From: a virus
DNA: 29,216 bases
IMG/VR virus record: IMGVR_UViG_3300026077_000016
Location: 1-29,216 of that record
Strand: one strand, 5' to 3'
Position 1 is the first letter of the stretch. Every line of letters starts with the position of its first letter. A program made the position numbers and the translations under genes. The notes below the pieces were generated by a model. It was given only the letters and a program-made list of their open reading frames with translations, ran no database searches and had not been told where the DNA came from. Of this stretch, positions 18,226 to 24,550 are shown piece after piece.

Positions 18226-19209
18226 ATGGCATTACAAGGATCTGGTTCGATATCATTTTCTCAAATAGAGAATGAATTTGGTGCAAATGGTGAGAGGTCG
18301 TTAGGAGACTACAGAATTACACAAAGTGTTGGTGAATTATCCAATTTACCTTTAGATTCTGGTATTCCAACATCAGGAACTATAAAGTTTAGTGATTTTT
18401 ATGGTAAAAAATTAAATGTAGTGGTAGATATGTACTCTGGTGGAACTGAGTTTCGTAAGAGTGCGAAGACTGATAAGTGGAATAATAATCAAGTAACTGT
18501 TATTGGTGGGTTTAGGAGCAAAAGAGAAAGTGGAAGTAGAATCATTATCCATATAAACAAAAAATTTGGTTCAGATAAAAGTAGTGTTAATAATGTTGCA
18601 GTAAAAACAGGTTCTTGGAGTGCGTCATCAGTTCAAGTTGATGTTGGTGGTGAAGGAGAAGTTTTAGGTGCTGGTGGTGATGGTGGAAGAGGTGGTGAGT
18701 GTTTAAATGGTGGACAAGCTGGTTTTAGTGGTACAAGTGGATTAGGAATAGAACATAATGGTATTACTGTTAATGTTTTATCTGGAGGTATAATTCGTGC
18801 TGGCTTCGGTGGAGGCGGTGGCGGTGGCGGTGGCCGTCAAACTGATAAGGGTTCAGACAGAAGAGCGTCAGGTGGTGGCGGTGGAGGAGGAGCTGGATTC
18901 CCTAATGGTTCTGGTGGAGCACAAGTAGGTGGATGTGGTGGTGGTGGAAACACTGGTGGAACAAATTCATCTGATACAGTCGCTGGAGATGGTGGTAGTG
19001 GTGCTAATAATGGAAACCAAGCATATGGTGCTGGTGGAGGAGAAGGTGGTCAATTTGGTGAAAATGCAGATAATGGAGGAAGTTCTCAAGCTGGTGGTGG
19101 AGCAGGTGGAGGAAATGGAGCTGCGATAAGGAGAAATTCAGGATTTAGTGTCACGATAAACAATAGTGGTACAATACAAGGAGATACAAATGCCACTGGG
19201 GTTGGTTAA
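18226..19209 (+). CDS. poly-glycine tail adhesin (gp38-like architecture)
   Basis: A 327-aa protein. The N-terminus MALQGSGSISFSQIENEFG, with SGTIKFSDFYGK near residue 50, is a recurring N-terminal module of marine phage tail proteins. Residues about 140-300 are dominated by Gly runs (GGGGGGGG, GGGGGGAGF, GGGGNTGG, GGGEGG) with short polar loops between. This organisation resembles the polyglycine type II sandwich of T2/S16-type gp38 adhesins, which sit at the long tail fiber tip, with variable loops between Gly stretches binding the receptor. Position last in the fiber module fits. Direct homology to gp38 is not claimed; the call rests on architecture. Confidence 0.68.
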   Translation: MALQGSGSISFSQIENEFGANGERSLGDYRITQSVGELSNLPLDSGIPTSGTIKFSDFYGKKLNVVVDMYSGGTEFRKSAKTDKWNNNQVTVIGGFRSKRESGSRIIIHINKKFGSDKSSVNNVAVKTGSWSASSVQVDVGGEGEVLGAGGDGGRGGECLNGGQAGFSGTSGLGIEHNGITVNVLSGGIIRAGFGGGGGGGGGRQTDKGSDRRASGGGGGGGAGFPNGSGGAQVGGCGGGGNTGGTNSSDTVAGDGGSGANNGNQAYGAGGGEGGQFGENADNGGSSQAGGGAGGGNGAAIRRNSGFSVTINNSGTIQGDTNATGVG

Positions 19210-19210
19210 G

Positions 19211-19239
19211 TTTACAAACTAGAAAAATACTGTTATAAT
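19211..19239 (+). promoter_or_regulatory. sigma70-type promoter TTTACA-17-TGtTATAAT
   Basis: TTTACA (19211-19216) and TATAAT (19234-19239) with the ideal 17-bp spacer and a TGT extended -10 (19231-19233), just after the adhesin stop at 19209. A start site near 19247 leaves a leader of about 15 nt before the ATG at 19262. It separates the late fiber genes from the oxygenase island. Confidence 0.8.
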
Positions 19240-19261
19240 TAAATTATGTGCTGTCTAGAAT

Positions 19262-19834
19262 ATGACATTAGAATCTGACTTAATAAGACGTTATAGAGGA
19301 GCGTTTACTTCACAGGATTGTGAGGAGTGTATAAAATATATTGACCAGTTCGATAAAAATAATCTTTTAACTTACGATACAGAAAAATTAAATGAAGTTG
19401 ATAATAAAACTATAAATCTCACACATAGTTATAATCTAGCATCATATTCTTACTTAGCAGATTTGATTTTACCTAAATTTAAACCTTGCATAGATGAATA
19501 TATCGAAGCGGTAAGTATACTAAGGGATTACAAATTTTTAACTTATGATTTGAAAATTAAAAAGATACCGATGGGTGGTGGATTTCACTCTTGGCATTTT
19601 GAAAACGGATCATTACCATATAGTCAAAGAAAGTTTGTGATACAACTATATTTAAATGATAATTTTGAGGGTGGTGAGACAGAATTTTTGTATCAAAATA
19701 GAAGAGAATTACCAAAACAGGGTGATGTTTTAATATTTCCTGCAGGATTTACACATACTCATCGAGGAAATCCACCTATAGATGGTGACAAATATTTGAT
19801 TACCTCTTGGGGGTTGACACAAGATCATGATTAA
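19262..19834 (+). CDS. 2OG-Fe(II) oxygenase, prolyl 4-hydroxylase-like
   Basis: A 190-aa protein of the 2-oxoglutarate/Fe(II) dioxygenase superfamily, which couples 2OG decarboxylation to substrate hydroxylation. The double-stranded beta-helix core is visible: GGGFHSWHFEN (about 106-115) supplies the proximal HxE pair (His112, Glu114) in place of the common HxD; FVIQLYLNDNFEGGETEF follows; LPKQGDVLIFPAGFTHTHRGNPP gives the distal His (165 or 167). Lys177 in GDKYLITSW takes the place where the 2OG-binding Lys/Arg usually lies. First gene after the sigma70-type promoter; overlaps the next gene by 8 nt. Substrate unknown. Similar phage proteins are often annotated as hydroxylases without known targets. 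Confidence 0.8.
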   Translation: MTLESDLIRRYRGAFTSQDCEECIKYIDQFDKNNLLTYDTEKLNEVDNKTINLTHSYNLASYSYLADLILPKFKPCIDEYIEAVSILRDYKFLTYDLKIKKIPMGGGFHSWHFENGSLPYSQRKFVIQLYLNDNFEGGETEFLYQNRRELPKQGDVLIFPAGFTHTHRGNPPIDGDKYLITSWGLTQDHD

Positions 19835-20537
19835 CCGAGAGATTTACAATATATTTCCTACTACAATTTATGTGGGTGAAATGGAAAATCACGAAGATTA
19901 TAAAACTAGATTTAACAAATTATATTCCAAATATGATTATGAACAAAAATCTGTTCGAGATAATGAAGAATGGTTTAATACGACAAGTGAAAATGCAGGT
20001 AATCCTTTTATACATCTAGAAGAAAGTTTATCTGATTTATTTCAACAAGTAATTGATAACGTTAAAATTTATACCCTTGAAGTATTAAAATATCAGGATA
20101 TTTTTGATTACATTATTACTAAAACTTGGTTATCCAGATCCAGAGCGACATATGAAAATATTAAATGGCACTCACACTCGACAAGTCATATATCTTTTTC
20201 ATATTACTTAAGTACCCCACAAAATTCACATGTGCTAAAATTTGCTAATCCACATAATACTAATAGTTTGTTTGTAGGATTAAATAATAGTGACGTTAAA
20301 GATGGTGTTGCAGAGAGGAATGAACTCAACGCTTCAACCTTTCATCTGGAACCTAAAGAGGGTTCTTTAATTTTATTTCCAAGTTCATTAGAACATAGCA
20401 CTCAATGTATTCATAATACTTTTAATGGTGAAAGACTTGCCATAGTTGGTGATGTAACATTGGTTCATAAAGAAGATGGTACAAATGACTACTCTATGGG
20501 TTATATAAATCCTAATTATTGGAGAATTTACAAATGA
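19827..20537 (+). CDS. 2OG-Fe(II) oxygenase of the HxH type (PF13759-like)
   Basis: A 236-aa protein. The N-terminus IYNIFPTTIYVGEM matches the usual opening (xxFPTxIY) of this phage/marine oxygenase family. The metal site is WHSHSTSHISFSYYL, with the family's H-x-H pair (His115, His117) in place of HxD; EGSLILFPSSLEHSTQ gives the distal His190 and ERLAIVGDV gives Arg203 for 2OG. Overlaps the upstream oxygenase by 8 nt and the next gene by ATGA. A different subfamily from its neighbour, so the two probably act on different substrates or positions rather than being a recent duplication. Confidence 0.82.
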   Translation: MINREIYNIFPTTIYVGEMENHEDYKTRFNKLYSKYDYEQKSVRDNEEWFNTTSENAGNPFIHLEESLSDLFQQVIDNVKIYTLEVLKYQDIFDYIITKTWLSRSRATYENIKWHSHSTSHISFSYYLSTPQNSHVLKFANPHNTNSLFVGLNNSDVKDGVAERNELNASTFHLEPKEGSLILFPSSLEHSTQCIHNTFNGERLAIVGDVTLVHKEDGTNDYSMGYINPNYWRIYK

Positions 20538-20881
20538 AGGCAATTATTAAAATAGATGAGTATCTTTCTGATAGAGATAGTATTGTAGTGAAGATTTGTA
20601 ATTTACACTCTCAAAAACCAATTGACGAATATAGTGCAAAAATTGTTGATTGTGACGATTTAGATAAAACTGATGTTGAAATGTTTGTAGATGGTCTTAT
20701 GAAAAAAAGTGGTGCTAGAAGAATAAAAACTCAGGAAGAAAAATTACCAATTTTAAAAGAAAATATGCCAGAACAATTTAGTGGTGAAGTCAATATAGAA
20801 AATTTAATTGGAAAGGTGATAGAGGGAAAAGTTGATGATTGGAGAAAGAAATCATTAAAAATGAGAAAGGTTGAATTATGA
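20534..20881 (+). CDS. small conserved-looking protein of unknown function
   Basis: A 115-aa protein starting at the ATG of the ATGA overlap (20534), with GGAG at 20521-20524 as ribosome binding site; an upstream in-frame start at 20519 is less likely. The N-terminus is beta-like (MKAIIKIDEYLSDRDSIVVKICNL), followed by an Asp/Glu-rich stretch and a basic C-terminal helix (WRKKSLKMRKVEL). No domain recognised. It is translationally coupled to an oxygenase on one side and to another unknown gene on the other. Confidence 0.6.
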   Translation: MKAIIKIDEYLSDRDSIVVKICNLHSQKPIDEYSAKIVDCDDLDKTDVEMFVDGLMKKSGARRIKTQEEKLPILKENMPEQFSGEVNIENLIGKVIEGKVDDWRKKSLKMRKVEL

Positions 20882-21351
20882 ATTGCCAACATTATTTTAA
20901 AAAATTAGACAAGTTTGCTGTATGTGCATTTCAAGCAGAAAAAGGTATGCTTGAAATTGAACCAAAATCTGAAAGTTGTGGAATATATCATTATGTTTTT
21001 TATGGTTCAGCAAAAATAGGAAAACCATTTAAATCAGAGTTTGAGATTGTCAAGAAAGGAGATTTTTTTGATATGAAGGACTATCTGAATCAACCTAGAT
21101 TATATGAAGCACTTGAAGATTTTTATGTATGGGGTTTTAACACGTTTCCAAATGAGGATTGGGATGCAAGATTATTAACAGATGAGGTGTTTACTGTTGA
21201 GAAAGACTCTGTGCTTGTTTGTCTAGATGGCAAACCAGTTGTTAATGATATATCTTTAAGAAGATTTGACTATAGTGAACTATCTACAGAGAAATCATAT
21301 AATGTAAATTTAGGTGACGGGGTGATTGCCCTATTCACCCGTAGTAAGTAA
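20878..21351 (+). CDS. unknown protein in the oxygenase operon (beta-rich)
   Basis: A 157-aa protein coupled by ATGA to the gene before. It is beta-rich, with segments FAVCAFQAEKGMLEI, YHYVFYGSAKIG and VLVCLDGKPVVNDISLRRFDY, and a final VNLGDGVIALFTRSK that recalls the closing strand of cupin-like domains. No metal-binding cupin motif is evident, so this is only a weak fold guess. Its 3' end overlaps the 3' end of the minus-strand halogenase-like gene by 17 nt. Confidence 0.6.
   Translation: MNCQHYFKKLDKFAVCAFQAEKGMLEIEPKSESCGIYHYVFYGSAKIGKPFKSEFEIVKKGDFFDMKDYLNQPRLYEALEDFYVWGFNTFPNEDWDARLLTDEVFTVEKDSVLVCLDGKPVVNDISLRRFDYSELSTEKSYNVNLGDGVIALFTRSK
21317..21342. other. stem-loop at the convergent gene ends
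   Basis: ACGGGGTGA (21317-21325, one bulged G) pairs with TCACCCGT (21335-21342) across a 9-nt loop. It sits exactly where the plus-strand unknown gene and the minus-strand halogenase gene end. Neither strand has a T-run after it, so it is at best a weak bidirectional terminator or a transcript-end stabiliser. Confidence 0.4.
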
Positions 21352-22507
21352 ATTCGTTAAAGTACACACCTAAAGTTGCCCATATTGCATTTGAAAATAA
21401 ATTAGTCTTTTTATTTTTTTTATTACGATAATTTTCCCAGAGTGATTTTCTTACATCAAATTGACTGTAGTATTTCCAAAATTCAGTATCAGTTCGACTG
21501 CTAAGTTTGTAGTGATGTAATATAAAATCAGAGTTACCTTTCCATATTCTTCTCATATTACGATTATATACATCTTGTGACTTGTTCTTCAATATACAGT
21601 CAACAAGAGAAGTAATACCATATACAGTCATATACAAAGCATTTGCTTCTAGTGGGTCAATAAATCCACAAGAGTTTCCTATTGCTACTACATCATCACT
21701 CCAAGCATTTGTTAATATATTTGGTTTCCATTTCAACAATCTAGGTTGACCGATTGGAATTAAATGTGAATTATATTGTTTGAATTGCTCTAGTGCATCA
21801 TCATAAGATATGTGATGACTTGAGAAAACATATCCATTACCAATTTTATTTGTCAAGTCTATTACAAATTGCCATCCATACTCTCTTGCGATTGATTTAG
21901 TATAGTTTTCTATCTTGTCAGTTTGTTTAAATGGACATACCCAAGCACTATCAACTAAATGGTCATCAAATATAGTTTCAGATTTATCTTTGATAAATTT
22001 ACGAGCGAATCCAGTACAATCAACATATAAATCATATCCTTTTGGTAATTCCGATAATGTCTCAATCTTATGATTCACATTATCACAATGATTTTTCATA
22101 ATTGTATTAGCTTTCTCTGCATCTAGGTGATAAGCAATTGAACCCCATTCACCCTTTGAATACAATTCATTTAATTGATGTTTTGTTTTATTCTGTTGAT
22201 ACCACTTCTCAAATTTATTATCATCATCGTGCCAAAAAGTAAATGTAAATGGTTTACCATCAATCTTATCCCAACCTGTTTTTATATTTCCATACTTGTA
22301 AATAGCGTTACATTCTTCCATCCACTCTGATTCCTCTACACCTATGGCATCAAAGAAAGTTTTAATTTGTGGTAATGATGATTCTCCAACACCTAATATT
22401 GGTATATCATTACTTTCTATGAGTGTAATTTCAGCATCAAGAAATTTATTCATATAGGCAGCACACCACCATCCTGAGACACCACCACCGATAATACAGA
22501 TTTTCAT
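21335..22507 (-). CDS. flavin-dependent halogenase-family protein (tryptophan halogenase-like, VirX1-like)
   Basis: A 390-aa protein starting at the ATG of an ATGA overlap with the upstream gene (22507). The FAD site GGGVSGW (7-13) is at the N-terminus; GVGESSLPQIKTFFDAIG (39-56) follows, then NAIYKYGNIKTGW with Lys71 where tryptophan halogenases have the catalytic Lys79; a DCTGF segment (163-167); and GNSCGFIDPLEANALYM (277-293) with Glu287 at the place of the catalytic Glu346. These enzymes use FADH2 and O2 to make hypohalous acid that reacts through the lysine. Two signatures are altered: WxWxIP reads WQFVID, and F..P..S.G reads FIDPLEANA. A cyanophage Syn10 member (VirX1) is known to iodinate. 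Activity here is inferred; a non-halogenating monooxygenase is the alternative. Confidence 0.78.
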   Translation of the reverse strand: MKICIIGGGVSGWWCAAYMNKFLDAEITLIESNDIPILGVGESSLPQIKTFFDAIGVEESEWMEECNAIYKYGNIKTGWDKIDGKPFTFTFWHDDDNKFEKWYQQNKTKHQLNELYSKGEWGSIAYHLDAEKANTIMKNHCDNVNHKIETLSELPKGYDLYVDCTGFARKFIKDKSETIFDDHLVDSAWVCPFKQTDKIENYTKSIAREYGWQFVIDLTNKIGNGYVFSSHHISYDDALEQFKQYNSHLIPIGQPRLLKWKPNILTNAWSDDVVAIGNSCGFIDPLEANALYMTVYGITSLVDCILKNKSQDVYNRNMRRIWKGNSDFILHHYKLSSRTDTEFWKYYSQFDVRKSLWENYRNKKNKKTNLFSNAIWATLGVYFNEFTYYG

Positions 22508-23073
22508 TCGTGGTCTATGCAATTAGGAAGCAAGTTTGTAACAACTTTGAAGTTGTGAGGGTTTATATAAATTCCCATCAAAATATGGTAGATGTCATCA
22601 ACCATCGCAAATGAACCGTGTTGTTTTTTAGTATTTAATAAGTATGCTCTACCTGCCTTGAGTTCAACTATATTTTTATCGTATATAAATGCAAATTCGT
22701 GTAATTCTGTTTTGTTAAGTGGGATAAAAATTCTCATTTGTTGAGTTGTCTTATATGCGTCACGATGCAATCGAAAGAAACTACCACTATTCATATTGAC
22801 TGCGTGACATTTAGCAAGACTGTTCCATAATTTAAAAAAATCTATGAGTGAAGGGCATTTTTTTAAATTATCATTTATACTGCAATCATTTCTTTTTGTG
22901 AGTTCTAAGTCATCTATGCTTCCAGTTAATGTTAATCCTTTTTTATTATTAGAACCATCCATCCATTTATCAATACATTTAAGTTCATCAATTATAGATG
23001 GAACATCAAATTGATAGTCAAGTTCAACTATATCTCCGTAACTATTCAATATCGTTAGGTAAGTATCGTTCAT
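22504..23073 (-). CDS. 2OG-Fe(II)/aspartyl-asparaginyl hydroxylase-like protein
   Basis: A 189-aa protein starting at the ATG at 23073; a TTG further upstream (23100) would extend it by nine residues but lacks support. The core FFRLHRDAYKTTQQMRIFIPLN (about 99-120) gives an HxD pair (His103, Asp105) and an Arg114; VELKAGRAYLLNTKKQHGSFAMVDD gives the distal His152, with a following ILMGIYINP strand. The arrangement H-x-D ... R-x-x-I-P-L ... G-x-x-x-x-x-N ... H resembles the aspartyl/asparaginyl beta-hydroxylase branch. It overlaps the DUF6356-like gene at its start and the halogenase gene at its end (ATGA), so the three are one minus-strand operon. Substrate unknown. Confidence 0.75.
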   Translation of the reverse strand: MNDTYLTILNSYGDIVELDYQFDVPSIIDELKCIDKWMDGSNNKKGLTLTGSIDDLELTKRNDCSINDNLKKCPSLIDFFKLWNSLAKCHAVNMNSGSFFRLHRDAYKTTQQMRIFIPLNKTELHEFAFIYDKNIVELKAGRAYLLNTKKQHGSFAMVDDIYHILMGIYINPHNFKVVTNLLPNCIDHE

Positions 23074-23323
23074 TTTTTGGATATTTACGGAGTTTGTCAA
23101 GTTTTTGTATGTGTTGTATTTTCATAATTTCGTGGTATAATACAATTACACCTTTGGGTGCATCTGATTTCCACATAAATGGTAGTAAACCATGAACTAG
23201 ACTCTTAAACGAGATTTTTATTAATTTATAAGAGTTTACGAGAGAGTGTTTTAGATGAAACCAATAAGTCCATCCAGTTTCTACTTCTAAGTGGTATTTG
23301 GATTCCTTAAAAATATTTCTCAT
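23042..23323 (-). CDS. DUF6356-like small protein, first gene of the inverted operon
   Basis: A 93-aa protein starting at MRNIFKES (23323). The pattern GWTYWFHLKHSLVNSYKLIK...SLVHGLLPFMWKSDAP (about 20-58) matches what I know of DUF6356-type proteins: an aromatic/His-rich amphipathic region followed by a hydrophobic helix ending in H-x-LLPF. It is probably membrane-associated. Its 3' end overlaps the hydroxylase gene by 32 nt in another frame. The protein is partly covered by a longer frame beginning at 23341, but the later start sits right after a good -10 box, leaving almost no leader. Function unknown; such genes recur in marine phages. Confidence 0.68.
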   Translation of the reverse strand: MRNIFKESKYHLEVETGWTYWFHLKHSLVNSYKLIKISFKSLVHGLLPFMWKSDAPKGVIVLYHEIMKIQHIQKLDKLRKYPKNERYLPNDIE

Positions 23324-23329
23324 AATTAT

Positions 23330-23358
23330 ATTATAACACAACTATCTAGTAATGCAAA
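23330..23358 (-). promoter_or_regulatory. sigma70-type promoter of the inverted operon, TTTGCA-17-TGtTATAAT
   Basis: On the minus strand TTTGCA (23358-23353) and TATAAT (23335-23330) are 17 bp apart, with a TGT extended -10 identical to that of the promoter at 19231-19239. The predicted start coincides nearly with the ATG at 23323, implying a leaderless or almost leaderless mRNA. The -35 lies inside the first codons of the divergent oxygenase gene at 23352. Confidence 0.62.
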
Positions 23359-23969
23359 ACATCTCTGCCGATGCCAATCTAGAACCATTCCCACATATTA
23401 TATTTCATAATTTTTATGATGATTATGAACTAGAACTAATATGGGAAGAATTGAATTTTTATACTAAACCTAAAAAACTTTTTGATGTAGAAGATTATCA
23501 GGGTGTTGTTGGATTTACAAAGGCAAAAGCTATTCAATTAGACTCGGTATATCAGGGTAAAAATAGAATTTTATCAAATATTTTGAGTGTGTCAAGGAAG
23601 GTATTTAATAATCAAATTTTACAACCATTTTGCAATTTACATGATTCTTGCTCTGTTGCTGACAAATCTAACTACGATATAACTAAAGTAAGATATTATC
23701 ATAATGGAGATTTTTATAAACCACATAAAGATATATCTTTTGATTTTTTAGCATTTTCTTATTTTTATAAAGAACCAAAAAAATTTGAGGGTGGTAATTT
23801 AATATTTCCAAAATATAATTATGAATTTAATTGTAACCATAATTCATTGATAATGATGCCATCTTGGGTAGAACATGGGGTTAGTGAAGTCAGTATTAAA
23901 GACTCTGATTACTATGATGGATATGGTAGGTATGCGATTACTCACTTCTTTGGACACAAGGAATTATGA
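23352..23969 (+). CDS. 2OG-Fe(II) oxygenase, prolyl 4-hydroxylase-like
   Basis: A 205-aa protein. The opening LEPFPHIIFHNFYDD is the common 'PFP..v..dFl' N-terminus of P4H-like oxygenases. The metal ligands are clear: YYHNGDFYKPHKDISF gives His125-x-Asp127, FEGGNLIFP follows, and NSLIMMPSWVEHGVSEV gives distal His175; GRYAITHFFG gives Arg193 for 2OG. All key residues are present, so it should be active. Divergent from the DUF6356-like operon with only 28 bp between starts, and coupled by ATGA to the next oxygenase. Substrate unknown. Confidence 0.85.
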   Translation: MQNISADANLEPFPHIIFHNFYDDYELELIWEELNFYTKPKKLFDVEDYQGVVGFTKAKAIQLDSVYQGKNRILSNILSVSRKVFNNQILQPFCNLHDSCSVADKSNYDITKVRYYHNGDFYKPHKDISFDFLAFSYFYKEPKKFEGGNLIFPKYNYEFNCNHNSLIMMPSWVEHGVSEVSIKDSDYYDGYGRYAITHFFGHKEL

Positions 23970-24505
23970 ATAACTACAAACCACCGTACTGGTATCACGG
24001 AAACATAAAATTTTCTAGTGAAGAACTTAATAATTTTAAAAAAATATTGGATGATTTAGGTTCTGAAAAATATGCAGAGAAAAAACAATGTATTACTACA
24101 TTCTTTTTGGATGAAACTCTAAGACCAGAAATGAAATATAGAGACAAGTATATTGATATAGTCGAAGAAATTACAAAAAATGCGGGAATTTACCATAAAA
24201 TAGAGTATAAATGCACTTATTGGTCACAATTATATGATAATAATATGAGTCATAATCCACATCATCACGCAAAACTTGACCCAAACTTCAATGATATTAT
24301 ATCTTGGGTTCATTTTATTGATGTTCCAGAGCAAAAATGTTTTAGATTTACTGATACAAAAGGAAATACTTTTGTTCCTGATGAACAATGCACAGGAGAC
24401 TTGATATGTTTTCCATCGTGGTCTTGGCACGAAGTAGTACCAAATAAAACTAACCATAGGAGATTAATTATATCAGGCAATATATCTGTAACCCATTATG
24501 ATTGA
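23966..24505 (+). CDS. 2OG-Fe(II) oxygenase-like protein with HHH cluster
   Basis: A 179-aa protein following the P4H-like gene by ATGA overlap. SHNPHHHAKLDPNFNDIISWVHFIDVP (about 95-121) resembles the proximal-ligand strand and turn of HxH-type oxygenases (His99 to His101), and CTGDLICFPSWSWHEVVPN...RRLIISGNI supplies distal His155 and Arg165/Arg166. The proximal ligands are less certain than in the other four enzymes, because the run PHHHAKLDP offers more than one choice. Last gene of the island; the twin hairpins and terminator begin at its stop codon. Confidence 0.72.
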   Translation: MNNYKPPYWYHGNIKFSSEELNNFKKILDDLGSEKYAEKKQCITTFFLDETLRPEMKYRDKYIDIVEEITKNAGIYHKIEYKCTYWSQLYDNNMSHNPHHHAKLDPNFNDIISWVHFIDVPEQKCFRFTDTKGNTFVPDEQCTGDLICFPSWSWHEVVPNKTNHRRLIISGNISVTHYD

Positions 24506-24522
24506 CAGTATGGAAACTGTCA
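24503..24522 (+). other. stem-loop at the oxygenase stop codon
   Basis: TGACAGT (24503-24509) pairs perfectly with ACTGTCA (24516-24522), with a 6-nt loop; the stem begins with the TGA stop codon. It stands 2 nt before the stronger terminator stem and may protect the 3' end or assist termination. Confidence 0.6.
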
Positions 24523-24524
24523 CA

Positions 24525-24550
24525 ACCCCCTGCACAGGGGGTATTTTTAT
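24525..24550 (+). terminator. rho-independent terminator
   Basis: ACCCCCT (24525-24531) pairs with AGGGGGT (24536-24542) around a GCAC loop, followed by ATTTTTAT. A GC-rich 7-bp stem plus a T-run is a canonical intrinsic terminator and closes the oxygenase island just before the helicase promoter. It is conspicuous in such AT-rich DNA. Confidence 0.92.

Follow-up and report, generated by a model that had tools for sequence, protein, structure and literature searches.

Gene content and layout of the island

The window considered here, i.e., the whole 29,216-nucleotide stretch of IMG/VR record IMGVR_UViG_3300026077_000016, is a 29.2 kb virus contig whose tail module is T4-like and comprises genes for tail tube, baseplate hub, hub/lysozyme, and fibre. 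The fibre genes are followed by the gene for a Gly-rich Gp38-like tail adhesin and then, at 19262-24505, by an island of five genes of the 2-oxoglutarate (2OG) oxygenase superfamily, one gene each for a PF04820 (flavin-halogenase-family) and a DUF6356 protein, and two unknowns, unk3 and cup4; UvsW-like helicase, cytidylyltransferase, and DNA methyltransferase genes lie 3' of it. Comparison with other phages demonstrates that in many of them unrelated 2OG-superfamily enzymes and a flavin-halogenase-family enzyme are kept together beside host-recognition proteins, and that the halogenase slot accepts two divergent enzyme forms. The window phage itself is very probably a cyanophage, since contigs bearing close relatives of the island (L029, L037, L040) encode photosystem II genes.

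All five oxygenase candidates listed in an earlier note, made from the letters of the window, were found at their places (19262, 19827, 22504 on the minus strand, 23352, and 23966), and the density and subfamily diversity stressed there are real, with PF13640, PF13759, and a Pfam-less 2OG fold represented. P4H1 (19262..19834, plus strand) matches PF13640 (8e-10), its H112-x-E114...H165...K177 set being invariant in 26 relatives, and P4H5 (23352..23969, plus) matches the same profile (9e-7) with H125-x-D127...H175...R193. HxH2 (19827..20537, plus; 2e-14; H115-x-H117...H190...R203, invariant in 16 proteins) and HxH6 (23966..24505, plus; 6e-7; HHH...H155...R166) match PF13759 with 54 and 30 bits, respectively, against 27. 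The latter two have HxH or HHH at the canonical HxD/E position, and because His replaces the canonical carboxylate, what they catalyze is less certain. The metal and 2OG residues are invariant across the homologues of P4H1, HxH2, P4H5, and ASPH, the fifth enzyme; P4H1, P4H5, and ASPH combine a profile or fold of the double-stranded beta-helix, an HxD/E...H triad, and a basic 2OG-binding residue, as expected of 2OG-Fe(II) oxygenases.

ASPH (22504..23073, minus; H103-R-D105...H152, R114) was assigned by its predicted fold. Its AlphaFold model (pLDDT 85) is a 2OG double-stranded beta-helix, with structural matches (Z 13-16) to L-proline cis-4-hydroxylase, a nucleoside-antibiotic hydroxylase, proline 3-hydroxylase, human AspH, and PHD2. 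There is no Pfam match, PF05118 (AspH) included, and a sequence search of the PDB returned nothing credible. As for the aspartyl-hydroxylase-like subfamily listed in the earlier note, the 2OG fold thus stands and AspH is among the structural matches, but the AspH profile does not match, and the fold is no nearer to AspH than to L-proline cis-4-hydroxylase or PHD2. Human AspH has a two-His metal site, unlike the HRD triad of ASPH. Pairwise BLAST of the five oxygenases gives no meaningful similarity (best match 16 aa, E 0.006), which rules out recent gene duplication as their source and upholds the earlier argument against simple duplication.

The flavin-halogenase-family protein, HAL (21335..22507, minus), is a short form of 390 aa. 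Its membership in the tryptophan-halogenase family, as originally proposed, is solid: it matches PF04820 at 1e-73 (249 bits, cut-off 21) and phrog_2928 at 2e-84, and its matches in the PDB include RebH and VirX1. The flavin motif GGGVSGW (GxGxxG, here GGGxxGW), K71, and E287 are invariant in 18 aligned proteins including VirX1; K71 corresponds to the catalytic Lys (K79 of RebH and VirX1), and E287 to the active-site Glu. Two further motifs are quoted as marks of halogenases, WxWxIP and the tunnel motif Fx.Px.Sx.G, the latter said to mark active flavin-dependent halogenases. HAL has GWQFVID at the place of the former, GWQF being general in the short form, and FIDPLEANA at the place of the latter, as does its nearest relative, L005, with FIDPLESNG in L029 and L030. 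WxWxIP is absent from some active flavin-dependent halogenases as well (PMC8407142). HAL is also shorter than VirX1 (390 versus about 530 aa), the segment after the Lys and the C-terminal region being missing. Because both motifs are degenerate, we class HAL by its sequence as a PF04820 family homologue and not as a halogenase by activity; halogenation by the short form is uncertain.

The third protein encoded on the minus strand, DUF6356-like in the earlier note, is indeed a DUF6356 protein of 93 aa (23042..23323, minus), encoded by the first gene of its operon and recognized by PF19883 (32.9 bits against a gathering score of 24.4; E 7e-8). Five His and one Glu are invariant in 30 phage relatives, a pattern resembling a metal site. 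The two remaining proteins, both listed as unknowns before, now differ in status. The protein cup4 (20878..21351, plus) is predicted to be a bicupin-like beta protein, whereas unk3 (20534..20881, plus; listed open reading frame start TTG at 20519), small and conserved, is still without a family. Despite its bicupin-like fold, cup4 has no invariant His, which rules it out as a metal cupin enzyme and makes a metalloenzyme unlikely.

The plus-strand genes form two operons, P4H1-HxH2-unk3-cup4 and P4H5-HxH6, with overlapping start and stop codons, and DUF6356-ASPH-HAL is the sole clear minus-strand operon of the window, with overlapping genes and an extended -10 site of its own. ATGA overlaps occur inside the operons, e.g., between ASPH and HAL and between unk3 and both its neighbors; HAL and cup4 converge, overlapping by 17 bases. 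A motif scan places an extended -10 sigma70-type promoter, TTTACA-17-TATAAT, 5' of the first plus operon (19211..19239, plus), and a promoter-like site of the same type, TTTGCA-17-TATAAT, before the minus operon (23330..23358, minus). Three extended -10 sites scoring at least 11/12 occur in the window versus 0.15 expected, and the left sigma70 promoter noticed earlier therefore belongs to a class clearly above chance. At the right end, a hairpin scan yields the intrinsic-terminator-like ACCCCCTGCACAGGGGGT followed by ATTTTTA (24525..24542, plus), which is indeed the strongest of five terminators found, although such sites are no more numerous in the region than chance would give. The island had been described as running from promoter to terminator; both ends are there, but it is not one transcription unit, as HAL, ASPH, and DUF6356 are reversed. 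The GC content is 29-31% versus 35-37% in the flanks, as expected of an accessory block. Every island gene is under purifying selection (dN/dS 0.04-0.37 relative to L005), HxH6 being the least constrained (0.37).

Conservation of the island in metagenomic phages

Scanning IMG/VR with HAL, ASPH, DUF6356, and cup4 as queries identified 29 distinct contigs with the whole or a partial module. The consensus order is fibre, adhesin, an optional extra small 2OG gene, P4H1, an optional second 2OG gene, optional unk3, and cup4, facing HAL, optional ASPH, and DUF6356 on the opposite strand, followed by divergently oriented 2OG genes and UvsW. The cup4 gene converges on the PF04820 gene in all 26 contigs covering that region, and DUF6356 lies upstream of the PF04820 gene, directly or via ASPH, in 23 of the 23 that cover it. 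DUF6356 is thus a constant companion of the halogenase gene in this clade.

Two forms of about 30% identity alternate in the PF04820 slot, the short one and one of 505-511 aa; L031 and L033 have the long form behind DUF6356 and ASPH, both of which are approximately 90% identical to their counterparts in the window. ASPH is missing from some islands (L069, L070, L078, L081-L084), and the flanking 2OG genes differ between loci, with DUF6445-type 2OG proteins present in L036. A sulfotransferase gene occupies the place of P4H5 in L030 (2503-3207, minus; PF00685) and, by position and size, in L031 (996-1706, minus).

Outside this order, a second phage group (L007, L014, and others; psbA was not found in the contigs searched) carries DUF6356-ASPH and, some 7 kb downstream, HAL, and in L023 HAL is followed by DUF6356. 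Hence the association of DUF6356, ASPH, and HAL is not confined to one setting.

Adhesin-linked halogenases in isolates and the VirX1 operon

A similar linkage is seen in isolates. In eight of them (S-RIM44, Syn10, P-TIM40, S-CREM1, Sf-FR1, S-WAM1, S-SZBM1, and P-RSM6), genes of Gly-rich adhesin type, themselves preceded by a fibre gene, have one or two halogenase genes close behind them, and a run of 2OG/JmjC-type enzymes comes after the halogenase(s); in S-SZBM1 this run includes two 2OG genes and a cupin gene. The second halogenase of Syn10, annotated as “hypothetical protein” (CPUG_00131), is VirX1 (full-length match to PDB 6QGM). Upstream of it are two genes for Gly_rich_2 proteins, and downstream, among others, genes for PF13759, JmjC_2, PF13640, and DUF6445 proteins. 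Studied JmjC_2 members hydroxylate ribosomal proteins.

The window has the same features as the VirX1 operon, namely, a Gly-rich adhesin, a PF04820 gene, and several diverse 2OG enzymes in a contiguous arrangement. The differences are that VirX1 has 531 aa and canonical WxWxIP and F-P-S-G motifs, whereas the window HAL has 390 aa and is about 30% identical to it, and that the Syn10 stretch is co-directional, whereas the island occupies both strands. DUF6356 was not found in Syn10 and five similar phages, nor elsewhere among the annotated phages, where ASPH gave a single match (24% identity).

In 17 annotated phages with 20 halogenase loci, 51 2OG genes lie at most 8 kb from a halogenase gene versus 20.0 expected if the halogenase were placed at random (p about 5e-5, a guide only, as related phages do not count as independent cases). 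Of these genes, 33 fall to the eight adhesin-adjacent loci, versus 8.0 expected, and 18 to the other twelve, versus 12. Away from adhesins, the halogenase is found among auxiliary genes in S-PM2, Syn1, S-MbCM6, and S-ShM2, and between the terminase genes in HTVC008M. The S-PM2 gene (L051, 7001-8155) looks decayed in that record, its frame being interrupted by an in-frame TAA.

Comparison of island content across related phages thus shows that the linkage recurs, in two or more different gene orders. The genes are not scattered singly, nor are oxygenases and halogenase unlinked, given the 29 contigs of the clade, the eight isolates, and the 2OG enrichment.

Co-divergence of enzymes and adhesins

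In up to 22 loci, the mean distances for P4H1, cup4, HAL, the adhesin, and the fibre are 0.40-0.49, versus 0.21-0.24 for DUF6356, ASPH, and UvsW, and thus the first group diverges about twice as fast. HAL distances correlate with those of the adhesin (Mantel rho 0.68; 0.54 when controlling for DUF6356, p 0.002), whereas with the adjacent ASPH there is no significant correlation (rho 0.13). This pattern fits a functional block; a recombining linked block would look similar.

Related gene clusters in bacteria

In a scan of bacterial genome contigs, ASPH was not found, and HAL had one close match, L100 (44% identity), and three others of 29-32%, which are ordinary tryptophan-halogenase relatives. 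L100 (PAAV01000010.1, 547-9363) is a small contig with phage-like content from a “Chloroflexi” metagenome-assembled genome, with carbamoyltransferase-like, AMP-binding, nitroreductase, and 2OG genes next to the HAL homologue; probably, it is viral DNA assigned to the wrong bin and bears a tailoring cluster.

The genomes of Paraglaciecola and Asticcacaulis (L101-L103, genomes G019-G021) have 26-32 PF04820 matches each, and seven out of 14 genes for DUF6445 (2OG-type) proteins in these three bacteria lie at most 1 kb from a PF04820 gene, versus 0.24 expected. In one locus (L101), two PF04820 genes are flanked by TonB-dependent receptor genes, with a Cupin_8/JmjC protein nearby. As in the island, PF04820 genes are joined by 2OG-type enzymes and, at this locus, by surface proteins; the clusters differ in the dozens of PF04820 genes per genome and in having receptors instead of adhesins, and DUF6356 was not found in the three genomes. 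By this analogy, the association of PF04820 and 2OG-type enzymes with surface proteins may extend beyond phages.

Possible function of the island

We tentatively favor the explanation that the island serves oxidative tailoring, as a conserved module linked to the adhesin and acting on a surface macromolecule, most likely the adhesin or fibre of the phage itself, a reading that we regard as plausible while falling short of probable. It rests on the linkage to adhesins in 29 contigs and eight isolates, the exchange of forms in the halogenase slot, the 2OG enrichment, the co-divergence, the purifying selection, the invariant catalytic residues, and the operon overlaps, with the bacterial PF04820/DUF6445 clusters as a parallel. 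Under this model, the 2OG enzymes would hydroxylate residues of the surface macromolecule during virion production, and the flavoenzyme would halogenate or otherwise oxidize residues of the same macromolecule, whereas bicupin-like cup4 and DUF6356 might be non-catalytic partners. Such modification could alter receptor binding, stability, or sensitivity to host defenses. The candidate substrate in the window is the adhesin (18226..19209, plus; 327 aa, 28% Gly), assigned by composition and by a match to a PHROG of tail fiber proteins (3.7e-13), with PF05268 (GP38) matching under its cut-off (E 0.004). That the enzymes perform several steps of one pathway, and that they modify fibre or adhesin, both suggested in the earlier note, is what we infer. 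The stronger version, in which marine cyanophages hydroxylate and halogenate (or flavin-oxidize) their own adhesins by a dedicated swappable cassette, this being the native role of VirX1-type halogenases, is possible but doubtful.

Several observations weigh against modification of the adhesin. Nine out of 17 phages carry the halogenase gene away from adhesin genes, so the linkage, though common, has exceptions; the window HAL is without the usual WxWxIP and F-P-S-G motifs; and the co-divergence of neighbors can stem from recombination of a linked block. The adhesin is low in Tyr (1.2%), Trp (0.6%), and Pro (0.9%), so that modification of this protein would have to fall on few sites or on other residues, unless the larger fibres are the real substrate. 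Finally, the HAL proteins of L029 and L030 are 96% identical, while their adhesins are merely 50% identical, which weakens strict co-evolution of HAL and adhesin; tight enzyme–adhesin specificity is therefore not claimed.

The same pair would be accounted for if the target were on the side of the host, which is the best of the alternatives, although an unlikely one. The enzymes would modify a surface polymer or receptor of the host (O-antigen, outer-membrane protein) during infection, blocking superinfection or releasing progeny from debris, and the adhesin would adjoin them because both concern the receptor. The sulfotransferase gene in L030 (and, by position, in L031), the bacterial PF04820 and 2OG genes adjoining those of outer-membrane receptors, and the sigma70 promoter, which is of host type, agree with this. 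On the other hand, the genes come after late tail genes, profile searches of the window's island genes revealed no transporter or glycosyltransferase family, and co-divergence with the adhesin is not explained unless both track the receptor.

Less likely still, the region between tail and replication genes could be a hot spot of accessory genes whose co-residence has no functional meaning. The low GC content, the variable flanking 2OG genes, and the abundance of 2OG genes in the annotated phages (6-19 per genome) are what one would expect in that case, but P4H1, cup4, HAL, and DUF6356 keep their kind, order, and strand throughout, the HAL slot takes in another member of the same family when its occupant changes, and in isolates the linkage recurs at another genomic place.

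In the literature, phage prnA has been suggested to protect against antibiotics (PMC2984593, PMC9964418), and the production or alteration of a small molecule (auxiliary metabolism, e.g., a halogenated protective compound) is accordingly an alternative, which for the island we consider rather improbable. In vitro, VirX1 accepts many small aromatic compounds for halogenation (PMC8407142), and the HAL homologue of L100 lies near AMP-binding and nitroreductase genes; against this, a Pfam search of the island found no assembly-line, CoA-ligase, or transporter gene, the linkage to the adhesin is constant in the window's clade, and the JmjC_2 enzyme of the VirX1 operon is from a family with protein substrates. 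A role of the 2OG enzymes in DNA repair or base modification, suggested by the nearby uvsW and DNA methyltransferase genes, by HxH6 lying immediately upstream of UvsW, by a sub-threshold Tet_JBP match of P4H5 (E 0.04), and by the discussion of 2OG genes near uvs genes as repair genes (PMC9146016), is very improbable, given that the families are PF13640, PF13759, and AspH-like, not AlkB, that repair offers no role for a halogenase or DUF6356, and that the constant neighbor of P4H1 is the adhesin.

Relation to previous studies

The same gene families in the same type of phages, T4-like cyanophages, have been described as “auxiliary metabolic genes” (PMC3037559, PMC2984593, PMC9964418); effects on 2OG levels or nitrogen have been proposed for the 2OG genes (PMC3037559), and those of S-SZBM1 have been called scattered (PMC9146016), although two of them lie behind the halogenase and adhesin-type genes together with a cupin gene. 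These studies treat the genes singly, with a function in metabolism, antibiotic protection, or repair, whereas here they form one adhesin-linked unit. We found no literature joining halogenase, oxygenases, and adhesin as one unit, the primary VirX1 paper being outside the search. Titles and abstracts of phage papers on tail fibre, hydroxylation, and dioxygenase included nothing relevant, collagen-like proteins, prolyl hydroxylase, and tail fiber yielded no paper, and an expression-timing study (PMC7238727) does not mention the island genes. In the literature examined, no demonstrated native substrate of viral halogenases or cyanophage 2OG oxygenases was found. The families are known, while the conserved adhesin-linked assembly with its DUF6356-ASPH-short HAL version is a variation not described in the literature examined.

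Crystal structures of viral halogenases exist, and the enzymes have served as biocatalysts; in marine cyanophages, few genes have multiplied as much as those for 2OG oxygenases. The pairing with adhesins offers a testable guess at the target of VirX1-like enzymes and puts one specific prediction in the place of vague proposals (antibiotic protection, DNA repair, nitrogen signaling). If the adhesin is modified, phages would chemically tune receptor binding after translation, a layer of chemical diversification in host recognition that we did not find described in the literature. If the host surface is the target, these gene sets would mark out a large class of enzymes that modify the envelope during infection.

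Two further phage loci have related content. In S-SCSM2R (L048, 1-8425), genes for an inosamine amidinotransferase and a glycosyltransferase share an 8-kb stretch with two 2OG genes and a PrnA gene. Pelagibacter phage Mosig EXVC030M resembles the island in that an Asp_Arg_Hydrox protein 24% identical to ASPH is encoded near tail-fibre genes, and differs in that no halogenase was found in its genome, which has aminotransferase, carbamoyltransferase, and nitroreductase genes instead. These, together with MoaA-like and 2OG genes, adjoin the tail-fibre genes (L044, 2791-14807), and the locus is a possible halogenase-free analogue of the island.

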